This document shows, one piece after another, positions 18,284 to 21,954 of a DNA stretch of 64,000 nt. Position 1 is the stretch's first letter. The number at the start of each line of letters is the position of its first letter. The stretch covers positions 1 through 64,000 of the forward strand of contig NZ_AQXC01000004.1 of assembly GCF_000375525.1 (NCBI RefSeq), read 5' to 3'. Under the pieces are notes generated by a model that searched no databases, had not been told where the DNA came from, and saw nothing but the letters and a program-made list of their open reading frames with translations. The translations under genes and the position numbers were made by a program. The DNA comes from Corynebacterium propinquum DSM 44285. GTDB taxonomy: Bacteria > Actinomycetota > Actinomycetes > Mycobacteriales > Mycobacteriaceae.

Positions 18284-19900
18284 CTACCCAAAAGTAAACG
18301 AGTACAGGCTCAAACCGGGTGAGACTTCGATCTCCAGGATTCCCGCTTGTGCTTTCTCAACGTCGAGGAGGTTTACCGTTCCGTCGTCGGTAACAGTGAA
18401 CTCTTGCCCGTTGGCCTTGATGGTGCCACTGCCGGAAACGACTGCTTGCACCAGAGCTGCGCGGTAGTTCAAGCGGATTGTGGCGTTGTCACCAGCGGTG
18501 ATGTTTTCCCGGTCGATGGTCCAATCGCCTTCCAAGGTGTATTGACCGATCTCCGGCTCCGGTCCAGATAAGGTGCCGGACTTATACGCGGGGTTGGCGT
18601 AGTACCGGGCGCGTTGGCTGCCCAAATAAGTCTCCGGGTTGCGATGCTGTGTGGTTTCGTCGTCGGAATCTTCCAATGGGGCAGGAAGTTCAACCGACGG
18701 ATCACGCTTCTGTAGCAACTCGCGCACGAGCTGCTCAGTACGGGCATAGGCTCCCTCGCCTTCGTGGATTTCCCGGACGGTGCCCTCAGCGTCGACAAGA
18801 TAATGTGCCGGCCAATATTGATTGTTGAAGGCTTTCCAGGTGGCGAAGGAATTGTCTTGGGCGACTGGGTAGTTGATGTTTTGCTCGGAAACCGCCTGGC
18901 GCACGTTCGCGGTTTCCCGCTCGAAGGCATATTCCGGGGAGTGTACGCCGATGACGGTGAAGCCATAGTCGCGGTAGTGATCATAAAGTTTGGTGATGTG
19001 TTTATTCGCGCGTTGGCAGTTGATGCAGGCATAAGCCCAGAAATCGATCAGCGTGACATCACCAGAAGTACGCGGGTCGACGGGGGTGTCCGTGTTCATC
19101 CAGTTTTCCAGGCCCACCAGCTCCGGGACGGTGCCGCAATTGCCAAGTTCACCGTTGCCACGGCAATCTTCCAATGAGTCTGATCCTTCGTTTTGTTGTG
19201 CCAGTTGCGCGGTGACGGTCTTTTCGGCATCACCTGTCCAGTTTGGTAGTTTTTGCTGGATCCACGCCGGCGCACCCAATGCCAGGGCACCGGCCATACT
19301 GATGACGATAACGCCAGCGGTGGCGCGGAAGACGCGTTGACGCGACTGGAAGAAATCTACGCGCTTGCCCACTTGCTGGCCGCCCAACGCAAAAACCAGC
19401 AGTGGGATGGCTACGCCAATCGCGAACGAGATGCAGAGAACGGCGATGCGGGCATCGATTTCGCCTGTAGCACCAGCCACGGTGATTGCCGCCAATACTG
19501 GGCCAGCGCACGGTACAAAAACCACACCCATGGCCAGGCCGACGGCAAACCCGCCCTTATCGCGGGCGCGGGCCTGCAACTTATGTGCCCGCGGCAGGAA
19601 CTGGAATGGCCATTCCAGTAGCTCCTGTAGTTTGGGAAAGATCATTCCTAGGCCGACCAGCACCAATAGTGCGATGCCGAGCTTCCACAAAATATCTGCG
19701 GGCAGCCCCAGCGCATTGAGCAACGTGGTGGCAAACAGCGTGACGACGGTAAAGCTGGTGACCAAACCGCCGATAACCAACCATGGGCGGGCTTTGGAGC
19801 CTTGGGATACTGCCAGCACTAGCGGCAGGATCGGCAAAATACACGGTGATATACCCGTGATCAGGCCACCGATAAAACCGATGGCGATGGTGCTGAGCAT
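18284..19900 (-). CDS. dipZ: DipZ: CcdA-type membrane domain fused to thioredoxin-like and C-terminal domains
   Basis: 538 residues. Residues 1-230 are a CcdA/DsbD-like domain with about six membrane helices and the redox cysteine region GISPCILPILPL and VPCAGPVLAA. A periplasmic thioredoxin fold follows with the CxxC motif YACINCQRANKH (~290) and AlkylHydroperoxide/redoxin features (DNSFATWKAFNNQYWPAHYL). A C-terminal beta-rich carbohydrate-binding-like domain ends the protein. It passes electrons from the cytoplasm to extracytoplasmic thiols. It faces, divergently, an operon with SigK-like and RskA-like genes; in mycobacteria dipZ is a SigK target, so the pairing is meaningful. Confidence 0.9.
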   Translation of the reverse strand: MLSTIAIGFIGGLITGISPCILPILPLVLAVSQGSKARPWLVIGGLVTSFTVVTLFATTLLNALGLPADILWKLGIALLVLVGLGMIFPKLQELLEWPFQFLPRAHKLQARARDKGGFAVGLAMGVVFVPCAGPVLAAITVAGATGEIDARIAVLCISFAIGVAIPLLVFALGGQQVGKRVDFFQSRQRVFRATAGVIVISMAGALALGAPAWIQQKLPNWTGDAEKTVTAQLAQQNEGSDSLEDCRGNGELGNCGTVPELVGLENWMNTDTPVDPRTSGDVTLIDFWAYACINCQRANKHITKLYDHYRDYGFTVIGVHSPEYAFERETANVRQAVSEQNINYPVAQDNSFATWKAFNNQYWPAHYLVDAEGTVREIHEGEGAYARTEQLVRELLQKRDPSVELPAPLEDSDDETTQHRNPETYLGSQRARYYANPAYKSGTLSGPEPEIGQYTLEGDWTIDRENITAGDNATIRLNYRAALVQAVVSGSGTIKANGQEFTVTDDGTVNLLDVEKAQAGILEIEVSPGLSLYSFTFG

Positions 19901-20127
19901 GATTGTGCAGCCTTTCTGAATGTCGCGCGCGTGACGGCGGAGGTTCGTCGTACGCGGCTCGTATTTTCTCTGTCATTGGTTTATCCGGAGCCGAGCGCCG
20001 TAGTGGATTGCTGCGAATGGCAGAAAAAAAATTTTCATATTTTCCAATCCGGTCTGCAGGGTGGCTCCGCAGTAGTAGTTGAAGGCAGGAAAAACTGCTG
20101 AAACCACTAGTTGTTGAGGAGACCCCA

Positions 20128-20544
20128 ATGTCTGCACATACTTCGATGAAGAAATTTTTGATCACTGCCGCTGCCGTTGCGATGAGCACGGTGGGCCTGG
20201 CTGCGTGCAGTAATGATTCTGCTGCAACTCCAACGAAGTCGTCAGAAACGAGCACTGAGAAGAGCACTGAGAAAAGCTCGGACGAGAGCTCGGACAAGAT
20301 GAGTTCTGAAAAGACGACCTCGGAGAGCACGAGTGGCGACAAGATGGGGGGCGACAGCGACAAAATGGGCGGCGACAAGATGGAGCACGACAAGATGAGC
20401 CACGATGACAAAATGGGTGGCGACAAGATGGGGGGCGACAGCGACAAAATGGGCGGCGACAAGATGGAGCACGACAAAATGGAACACGACAAGATGGGCG
20501 GTGAAGGCGACAAGATGGAGCATGACGACAAGATGAGCCAGTAG
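20128..20544 (+). CDS. Lipoprotein with (DKMxx) repeats, MXKDX-type
   Basis: 138 residues. Signal peptide with lipobox (VGLAAC, Cys ~30), then a Ser/Thr/Glu-rich spacer. Residues ~70-138 are built of DKM-x-x units such as GGDKMEHDKMSHDDKM. The pattern alternates acidic residues, Met and some His, typical of pentapeptide MXKDX repeat proteins and suggestive of metal (copper?) or oxidant interaction; this is inference. The DNA contains an 84-bp tandem duplication. It is the first gene of the operon with the sigma factor, 11 bases downstream. Confidence 0.75.
   Translation: MSAHTSMKKFLITAAAVAMSTVGLAACSNDSAATPTKSSETSTEKSTEKSSDESSDKMSSEKTTSESTSGDKMGGDSDKMGGDKMEHDKMSHDDKMGGDKMGGDSDKMGGDKMEHDKMEHDKMGGEGDKMEHDDKMSQ
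20335..20481 (+). repeat. 84-bp tandem repeat in the lipoprotein gene
   Basis: A unit starting GGCGACAAGATGGGGGGC at 20335 recurs at 20419, 84 bases (28 codons) later, with near-identical sequence over more than 60 bases of the second copy. In-frame unit gain or loss would change protein length. Confidence 0.75.
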
Positions 20545-20555
20545 TATGTAATGCT

Positions 20556-21137
20556 GTGTCTAGTTGCAGCCCTGAAGAACATGCTCGCCTCGACGCGCTC
20601 GTCGCGGGCGTGGCCGACGGGGACCAGCGCGCTTTTTCACAGCTTTATGATGCGCTTTCGCCGCTGGCCTACGGTGTGATCATCCAGATCCTCGGTGATA
20701 ACTCGCTCGCGGAAGAAGTGCTGCAGGAAGTTTTCGTGGAAGTCTGGAATAAAGCACGTAGCTTTGACCCAGACCGTGGTCGCGCCCGCACGTGGGTGGG
20801 TAGGATCGCGCATTCCCGCGGAATTGATAAACTGCGTGCGCATAACGCCAGCGTGCGCCGCGACGATGCCGATTTTGTTCTTGGGGAACGCATCCGCGAA
20901 ATAGATGTGGAAACTGAGGCCCTTACTAATGTGGAGGGAAAACGACTGCGGGCAGCCGTCGACAAGATTGGCGAGCCACACCGCACGGCCGTTCTGCTGA
21001 CGTTTTTCGACGGGCTAAGTCACGCGGAACTGGCAGAATCCACCAATGTCCCATTGGGTACCGCAAAAACGCGGGTGCGCGATGGGGTACGCAAACTAGC
21101 AGCTGTTTGGGGAAGGGGTGAAGCCCACCATGAGTGA
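20556..21137 (+). CDS. sigK: ECF sigma factor, SigK type
   Basis: 193 residues. Sigma region 2 (AFSQLYDALSPLAYGVIIQI, EEVLQEVFVEVWNKA, FDPDRGRARTWVGRIAHSRG) and region 4 (LLTFFDGLSHAELAESTNV, PLGTAKTRVRDGVRKL) are present with no extra domain. The partner downstream is an RskA-like anti-sigma factor, supporting the SigK group. The GTG start has no Shine-Dalgarno sequence. TAGTAT lies 8 bases before it, overlapping the lipoprotein stop, so it may also have its own leaderless transcript. Its likely regulon includes the facing dipZ and its own operon. Confidence 0.88.
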   Translation: MSSCSPEEHARLDALVAGVADGDQRAFSQLYDALSPLAYGVIIQILGDNSLAEEVLQEVFVEVWNKARSFDPDRGRARTWVGRIAHSRGIDKLRAHNASVRRDDADFVLGERIREIDVETEALTNVEGKRLRAAVDKIGEPHRTAVLLTFFDGLSHAELAESTNVPLGTAKTRVRDGVRKLAAVWGRGEAHHE

Positions 21138-21954
21138 TCGCGACGGGAAGCACGTCTCGAGCAACGACATCACTAGTAATAACGTCTCTCAGGCTAACTC
21201 GGAACAATTCGACGACGAGTTTTTCGATGCCTTCCTCGATGCTGTCCCGGAGCACACCCCGCCGCAGCATGTGAAAGGGCAGCTGCTTGCACGCCTCGGT
21301 CATTCTGATGCGGGCGCAGCTTTAGATGATCACACGCAGCGTGAATCGGCGGTGGAAGCACATAATGTCGTTTCGTTGCGGGCGAAAGCTTCATCCGCGA
21401 CGGCTCAGTCCGCGATGGCTCAGTCCGCAACGCCTCAGTCAGCGGCTTCTCGGAAGAGTGTGCCGCGAAAAACCTGGGTGCTGGCCGGTGGTCTCGCAGC
21501 CGCTGTATTGTTGGTGGTAGTTACAGTGCTTACTCCCGTGCTGGATAATGCTACCGATGACGCTGGTGAAGGCACGATCGTTGCAGAAGATGCTGATTCG
21601 ACCGCGGATGGGCACGAACAGATGCATGAGATCATGTCGGCGGCCGATCTGGTCAGCGGCGCGACTACCGCGGAAGGCGCACGCCTGCACATTGTGTCGT
21701 CGACAGAAATGGGCAAAGCCGGTGCGATGGTGGATGGTCAACCGGATCTTGCCGACGGCATGGGCGCGCAGGTGTGGTCCGTCGACAAGAATGGCGTGGT
21801 GCGTTCGGCCGGAGTCATCGGCCAAGACCCGCACGAGGACGTGTGGATGCCTTTCGACGCTGCCACCCATAAGGTCATGGTCACTGAAGAGCCCGCAGCT
21901 GGCAGCACGAGCCCGAGTGGTCGGATGCTCGCTGAGGTCGTGTTGGAAGCCTAA
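21130..21954 (+). CDS. rskA: Anti-sigma-K factor RskA-like
   Basis: 274 residues from ATG 21130, overlapping the sigma gene by 8 bases. The N-terminal cytoplasmic part (~1-60, with EFFDAFLDAVPEHTPP) would hold the sigma factor. An Ala/Ser/Gln-rich repeat (AMAQSATPQSA) follows, then a single membrane helix (~115-137). The extracytoplasmic RskA domain (~150-274) has GAQVWSVDKNG and the EEPAAGSTSPSG end. The canonical HxxxCxxC zinc motif is absent. Regulated proteolysis releases the sigma factor in the SigK/RskA paradigm. Met-rich exposed residues might sense redox state; unproven. Confidence 0.82.
   Translation: MSDRDGKHVSSNDITSNNVSQANSEQFDDEFFDAFLDAVPEHTPPQHVKGQLLARLGHSDAGAALDDHTQRESAVEAHNVVSLRAKASSATAQSAMAQSATPQSAASRKSVPRKTWVLAGGLAAAVLLVVVTVLTPVLDNATDDAGEGTIVAEDADSTADGHEQMHEIMSAADLVSGATTAEGARLHIVSSTEMGKAGAMVDGQPDLADGMGAQVWSVDKNGVVRSAGVIGQDPHEDVWMPFDAATHKVMVTEEPAAGSTSPSGRMLAEVVLEA

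Follow-up and report, generated by a model that had tools for sequence, protein, structure and literature searches.

A divergent SigK-RskA unit with DipZ and a methionine-rich lipoprotein as probable outputs in Corynebacterium, a candidate extracytoplasmic oxidant response

Background

In Mycobacterium tuberculosis the extracytoplasmic function (ECF) sigma factor SigK and its membrane anti-sigma factor RskA are accompanied by an adjoining lipoprotein gene and have DipZ in their regulon (PMC7509140, PMC3078919, PMC9861118; statements on published systems refer throughout to the available portions of the papers cited). The signal that starts the SigK cascade was stated to be unknown in a 2020 study of RskA (PMC7509140). 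Here we describe a locus with members of the same SigK/RskA family in Corynebacterium propinquum DSM 44285, whose genome is 2.46 Mb. It lies in a stretch of 64,000 nucleotides, hereafter the window, which forms the start of contig NZ_AQXC01000004.1. In this locus sigK and rskA follow the gene of a methionine-rich (Met-rich) lipoprotein, and the three are divergent from dipZ.

The grouping is partly known from the genus. The account of island PiCp2 of C. pseudotuberculosis, published in 2011, lists cskE (anti-sigma), sigK and dipZ together (PMC3078919); its available text lists no lipoprotein gene beside them and holds no promoter or sensor analysis. An earlier note on the window had regarded the lipoprotein as an undescribed SigK output. 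This stands as far as the open PubMed Central (PMC) literature goes, in the available text of which we found no description of a Met-rich lipoprotein under SigK (subscription journals lie outside this coverage), while the cskE-sigK-dipZ part of the grouping had already been published.

Other close systems are proteobacterial. In Brucella the ECF pair BcrS-AbcS drives bcrXQP, encoding a Met-rich MXKDX protein and MsrQP, and bcrXQP is induced by hypochlorous acid and contributes to resistance against it (PMC8315932). The BcrX system has been likened to MrpX of Azospira, in the arrangement MrpX-YedYZ (as cited in PMC8315932). In both, the ECF sigma/anti-sigma pair adjoins genes for a Met-rich repeat protein and for a redox partner, and the window locus likewise has a short exported Met-rich repeat protein beside its ECF pair. 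MsrPQ is not found in the window locus; DipZ is there instead. Further, BcrS is an ECF16 factor with a DUF1109 anti-sigma factor and MsrQP, whereas the Corynebacterium locus has SigK/RskA, a Gram-positive lipoprotein and DipZ. Judged by these features the locus resembles MrpX/BcrX in anatomy and is not a member, as sigma group, anti-sigma factor, repeat and partner all differ. It would carry the idea of a Met-rich scavenger over from Proteobacteria to the lipoproteins of Gram-positives, many of which live as commensals on human skin and in the airways.

Genes of the locus

Between rsmE and phoH the gene order is dipZ on the minus strand, followed on the plus strand by the lipoprotein gene, sigK and rskA. 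All four genes are present where the earlier note had placed them, and its description of a head-to-head arrangement is correct for dipZ versus the lipoprotein-sigK-rskA unit. The dipZ gene (18284..19900, minus strand) encodes a CcdA/DsbD-type membrane domain (Pfam DsbD_TM), an extracytoplasmic thioredoxin fold with a CINC motif and a C-terminal Thioredoxin_10 module, the same composition as in Rv2874, which makes it a DipZ; its closest relatives in the PDB are the DipZ structures 2hyx and 5cyy (E 4e-70, residues 241-538). The lipoprotein gene (20128..20544, plus strand) encodes 138 aa, with the ATG at 20146 as a possible start, and ends 11 bases before sigK (20556..21137, plus strand). SigK and rskA overlap. 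The rskA gene (21118..21954, plus strand; the ATG at 21130 is a possible start) carries RskA_C (Pfam PF10099, E 1.6e-17), and its product has an extracytoplasmic domain at residues 141-278 (21538..21951).

SigK NF007228 is the best of the 91 NCBIfam models listed for the window SigK (E 2e-48), at 164.6 bits against a curated cut-off of 226 bits that it does not reach, and the best PDB relative is 4nqw, the M. tuberculosis SigK (E 9e-26). This locus is the only strong SigK match in the genome (418 bits; runner-up 40). The protein shares 98% identity with its counterpart in Corynebacterium sp. MSK297 and 91% with the C. pseudodiphtheriticum SigK.

Linkage across Corynebacterium

SigK relatives at E 1e-20 were present in 83 of 242 genomes of the genus, and the stretches around all matches gave 84 loci. 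We refer to the 66 loci (65 genomes) with a SigK at least 41% identical as type A; the SigK of the other 18 is less similar. A script that examined 900 bases upstream of sigK, on the sigK strand only, for lipoproteins with at least 6% Met found one directly upstream in 62 of the 66 type-A loci and in none of the 18 others. A divergent dipZ was present in 59 of the 66. The four type-A loci missed by the script differ in cause: at L034 the lipoprotein is present and was overlooked, at L170 it lies further upstream, L028 stops at a contig edge, and L149 has no Met-rich lipoprotein. It should be noted that the 62 include a decayed second copy, L147. The linkage is thus genus-wide, and a restriction to this genome, which the earlier note had named as what would refute its reading, does not apply. 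On the genome level, 66 of 242 genomes have dipZ, and 62 of them are of type A, of which there are 65 (Fisher 8e-49, kinship ignored).

The mpt83-sigK-rskA arrangement of M. tuberculosis has a fasciclin lipoprotein where the type-A loci have Met-rich repeats. No fasciclin was found in the 65 type-A genomes, against 31 of the 177 other genomes of the genus, 14 of which have the distant SigK type; the proposed replacement of the fasciclin antigens is borne out by these counts.

Three loci deserve separate mention. L163 comes from an atypical Corynebacterium whose SigK is distant (34%), and the outer part of its RskA has 10.8% Met. This was noticed before its lipoprotein, which has MSDEK/MSDGK repeats, is divergent from dipZ-sigK-rskA and was found on subsequent inspection. 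Upstream of its sigK, L170 (genome G128) has a Met-rich lipoprotein and a second one that is Asp/Glu-rich with a Met-free mature part, and its dipZ is on another contig. The decayed second cassette copy of C. meitnerae (L147/L048) has stops within sigK and dipZ.

A shared promoter motif

The sequence CAATC(C/T)-N15-17-CCGNA was found upstream of the lipoprotein gene in 58 of 63 regions and upstream of dipZ in 53 of 59, in line with the earlier note, which had suggested looking for a shared SigK-type motif. In 300 Markov shuffles the mean counts were 0.12 and 0.16, and the highest 2 and 4, respectively. The spacer is 16 in 99 of 111 cases, and bases are conserved beyond the searched pattern, a C before and a G after the first box and GCT before the second, giving the extended motif CCAATCCG-N12-GCTCCG(T/A)A. 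The window has CAATCC-N16-CCGGA before dipZ (19984..20010, minus strand) and CAATCC-N16-CCGCA before the lipoprotein-sigK-rskA unit (20045..20071, plus strand).

These two sites are also the only matches in the whole genome to a strict form of the motif, CAATCC-N13-15-CTCCGNA. As the strict motif occurs only at this locus, the SigK regulon looks local in this genome; this is a difference from M. tuberculosis, the strict motif being confined here to one divergent pair. A looser form of the motif matched 20 times, against 4 for the reversed control. Of the 18 additional matches, 15 lie inside long reading frames and 3 between them, judged by position, and none was convincing as a wider regulon. 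In the 65 type-A genomes the strict form gave 146 matches against 14 for the reversed control. Of the 146, 84 lie at most 2.5 kb from sigK, in 51 genomes, and 31 of these genomes have at least two there.

From its place and conservation we infer that SigK recognises this motif, and the regulation of both units by SigK appears well supported. A divergent SigK unit with the Met-rich lipoprotein as an output is, on the sequence evidence, very probable. The motif probably resembles the SigK promoter consensus of M. tuberculosis. The only CCATCC in the available text of PMC7509140 sits in a primer. Divergent CCATCC-N15/16-CCGAA motifs are present in Nocardioides insulae (L086), between sigK and a SUOX-type gene.

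Methionine in the lipoprotein and in RskA

The window lipoprotein has a lipobox, LAAC with Cys27, followed by a mature part of 112 aa made of DKMxx-type repeats; tandem arrays were detected in its gene by TRF. The repeats are mostly MxxDK, not MxKDx. Pfam and NCBIfam scans gave no model over cut-off, the Fasciclin domain was not found by Pfam, and there was no NCBIfam match to an MXKDX repeat family at E 0.1, in a release that may not hold such a model. A curated family identity was therefore rejected, as every match was weak, low-complexity and below cut-off.

The 62 mature parts found in the genus are highly variable in sequence and constant in composition, with 18% Met, 17% Ser, 14% Asp, 12% Glu and 11% Lys. 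Leu, Ile and Val together make up less than 1% and aromatic residues about 0. That this composition is shared by all 62 means that it is not due to chance. Since Met is about the only hydrophobic residue besides Ala, the lipoprotein is expected to be a disordered chain with exposed methionines.

Met is also enriched in RskA, a point which the earlier note had missed. In 63 Corynebacterium loci the Met content is 6.8% in the outer part of RskA, 1.8% in its cytoplasmic part and 1.0% in SigK. Met at residues 169, 173, 198, 204, 215 and 244 of the window RskA is kept in 91-100% of 65 aligned Corynebacterium RskA sequences, and some of these positions are charged or polar in other actinobacteria, e.g. 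Arg/Lys at 215. The model of the outer domain has a mean pLDDT of 78.5, with one helix and eight strands, and no PDB match was found at E 0.001. The window RskA differs from that of M. tuberculosis in having a Met-rich outer domain.

The earlier note had left the choice between a redox and a metal response open. In a metal response the outer domain of RskA would bind Cu(I), the lipoprotein would chelate surface copper and DipZ would keep the ligands reduced. Low-complexity sequence rich in Met is a typical feature of Cu(I) proteins, and the RskA domain has a conserved M-H-x-I-M as well as a conserved His at ORF position 245. However, MxM and MxxM, the spacings of the Cu(I) type, are underrepresented in the lipoproteins: of the neighbouring Met pairs 0.9% are at spacing 2 (shuffles, 15.1%) and 7.8% at spacing 3 (shuffles, 12.9%), counts of a kind that repeats inflate, and pairs at spacings 4 to 7 are commoner than in shuffles. 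In addition His makes up only 1.4% of the lipoproteins. With the two further points given below, we consider a metal response rather unlikely and the evidence as leaning towards redox.

The cysteines bear on a third reading, a thiol-oxidation or cytochrome-type maturation system to which DipZ and the lipoprotein would belong and in which SigK would sense disulfide stress via thiols, as proposed for the M. tuberculosis SigK. There a Cys133-Cys183 disulfide affects the complex with RskA, and the pair is kept in 94% of ECF18 and 56% of ECF19 (PMC7509140). The DipZ described here is, further, close to Rv2874. Unlike the M. tuberculosis protein, the window SigK lacks the pair, its sole Cys being residue 4; 33 of 66 Corynebacterium SigKs are free of Cys, 32 have one and 1 has two, and in the 62 lipoproteins the lipid-bearing Cys is the only one. 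A thiol-sensing system is on these counts quite improbable.

Co-occurrence outside Corynebacterium

Among the named loci beyond Corynebacterium, Met-rich lipoproteins first came to light in Nocardiopsis and Nocardioides insulae, with 13 Met in each RskA outer part. To all loci alike we then applied one criterion, a lipoprotein with at least 8% Met within 5 kb on either strand. As the named loci were already known when this criterion was set, only 59 new loci, drawn from a class-wide SigK search, are out of sample. These were chosen for family spread among the matches listed, ranked by likeness to the N. insulae SigK, before their RskA was inspected, with one 100-base stretch (L256) left out. 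In total 139 loci had a SigK, and removal of 15 without an RskA_C match and 4 short or duplicate ones left 120, a few of them from non-actinobacteria such as L092, L100, L114 and L115. At least 2.6 kb upstream is available at 110 non-Corynebacterium loci; where a contig edge cuts a locus short, as in some cases, a call of no lipoprotein is weaker.

Among 106 distinct non-Corynebacterium sensors, 8 were Met-rich with a Met-rich lipoprotein nearby and 98 were Met-poor without one, and there were no mixed cases. The split is the same wherever the Met line is drawn between 6 and 10% (Fisher 3e-12, kinship ignored), the outer part of RskA having at least 10.4% Met in the 8 and at most 5.8% in the 98. 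Two of the 53 distinct new loci have a Met-rich sensor, and the same two alone have a Met-rich lipoprotein. When the named Corynebacterium loci are added, a 6% line gives 18 loci with both, 2 with the sensor only, 2 with the lipoprotein only (L036 and L037, sensors below 6% Met) and 98 with neither.

On the SigK tree the trait requires three changes, also when only well-supported branches are used, located at Corynebacterium, Nocardiopsidaceae and N. insulae. The root is for drawing only, and three changes could equal one gain and two losses; our own reading is that the trait was probably gained three separate times. Most Met positions of the Corynebacterium sensors are not those of the other eight, 204 being shared and 215 half shared, which points to parallel enrichment rather than to one inherited Met-rich sensor. 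It is also unlike what a fixed metal site would show.

A last alternative is that the lipoprotein is an MPT83-kind fasciclin lipoprotein minus its domain, serving on the surface as a disordered spacer or decoy, without any part in redox chemistry and with incidental Met. It does occupy the position of the fasciclin lipoproteins before sigK. Moreover, 11 fasciclin-like lipoproteins before sigK (L066, L073, L082 and eight others) have a Met-rich linker after the lipid Cys, of 34-48 residues each and with 40 Met in total; Fasciclin was confirmed by Pfam in the three of them tested. The Corynebacterium lipoprotein may indeed be such a linker minus the fasciclin domain. As a mere by-product, though, it would leave unexplained why in the same genomes the outer domain of RskA, unlike its inner part and SigK, is Met-rich, and why the trait occurs in separate lineages. 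We find this alternative improbable.

Redox partner genes

In N. insulae and Nocardiopsis potens a gene with Oxidored_molyb (PF00174) lies between the lipoprotein gene and sigK (E 1e-45 and 7e-39), and tblastn detected a similar gene at each of the other six non-Corynebacterium Met-rich loci. The SUOX/PF00174 superfamily includes MsrP. A neighbour from the SUOX/MsrP superfamily in two lineages speaks for redox and against the metal response. Across many actinobacterial families the vicinity of sigK-rskA has both a PF00174-like and a fasciclin-like gene: in the 110 non-Corynebacterium loci (not made distinct) a fasciclin-like stretch is present within 5 kb in 46, a PF00174-like stretch in 47 and both in 34. 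As such genes repeatedly adjoin SigK outside Corynebacterium, the combination of SigK with an adjoining lipoprotein and envelope redox enzyme appears to be a recurrent plan, of which DipZ with the Met-rich lipoprotein would be the Corynebacterium form. The single PF00174 protein of the window's genome was rejected as a secreted Msr, being a cytochrome b561 fusion on another contig.

A possible oxidant response

We suggest the following model. RskA would hold SigK at the membrane until a methionine-reactive oxidant (hypochlorous acid, singlet oxygen or similar) oxidises the Met residues of its outer domain, upon which SigK would be released or activated. SigK would then fire the two divergent promoters, giving the lipoprotein and more SigK/RskA from one and DipZ from the other. 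The lipoprotein would act as a sink, a disordered, membrane-anchored methionine carpet that is oxidised instead of essential envelope proteins, while DipZ would carry reducing equivalents across the membrane and may serve repair of methionine sulfoxide (MetSO). For this self-contained extracytoplasmic stress switch in full we put the chances just on the favourable side of even. That RskA is itself the direct sensor of methionine oxidation, so that sensing and scavenging rest on the same chemistry, with MetSO as the signal of this SigK-RskA branch, we offer tentatively and hold to be rather less probable.

That Met is enriched in parallel in the outer domain of the sensor and in a neighbouring output protein makes methionine oxidation a single, testable candidate for the signal. 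Because the Met-rich lipoprotein and the Met-rich outer half of RskA coincide, our data suggest that many Corynebacterium species employ methionine as sensor and as sink for oxidants outside the membrane. Reports on light and UV in SigK-type systems (PMC9861118, PMC8965627) would fit an oxidant signal loosely. The overall interpretation of the earlier note is supported in part, by the motif, the linkage and the fasciclin replacement, for a grouping of which the cskE-sigK-dipZ portion was known.

Several observations weigh against the model. Light induced mpk83 and mpk70 in M. kansasii, whereas dipZ did not respond (PMC9861118). No extracytoplasmic MetSO reductase was identified in the window's genome, which leaves regeneration of the lipoprotein unproved; its single MsrA and single MsrB show no signal peptide by eye. 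The pairing of sensor and lipoprotein has a clear exception in L058/L149 (the same genome type; G179), where DipZ is present and the sensor of L058 has at least 6% Met without a Met-rich lipoprotein beside it. The same combination is seen in the decayed copy L048. A Brachybacterium sensor and two f29 sensors reach 5.7-5.8% Met without a Met-rich lipoprotein. Within the genus the separation by sensor Met is weaker than outside it: the outer part of RskA has 3.1-5.9% Met in 12 loci of fasciclin genomes (two more, without an RskA_C match, were left out) versus 3.9-10.0% in type A. Seven of the 8 non-Corynebacterium loci with the Met-rich lipoprotein form one clade, and kinship is ignored in the co-occurrence tests. 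Finally, 62 of the 146 strict motif matches lie away from sigK, in 33 of the 65 genomes. As these exceed the 14 of the reversed control, the SigK regulon may be wider in some other species.

One of the matches away from sigK (genome G197) adjoins its dipZ on another contig. Some of their sequences recur between genomes (e.g. G090/G091 and G116/G155), and it is possible that these are further SigK targets or shared coding sequence.

Minor observations

Among the 15 loci dropped is that of Actinorugispora (L244, the same site as L099), which has a SUOX-type gene and no RskA_C match after sigK; its lipoprotein has 4 Met in the mature part, too few for the 8% line. L049, labelled Brevibacterium sp. 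HMSC07C04, is truncated and groups inside Corynebacterium in the SigK tree, hence this contig is probably mislabelled or contaminated.

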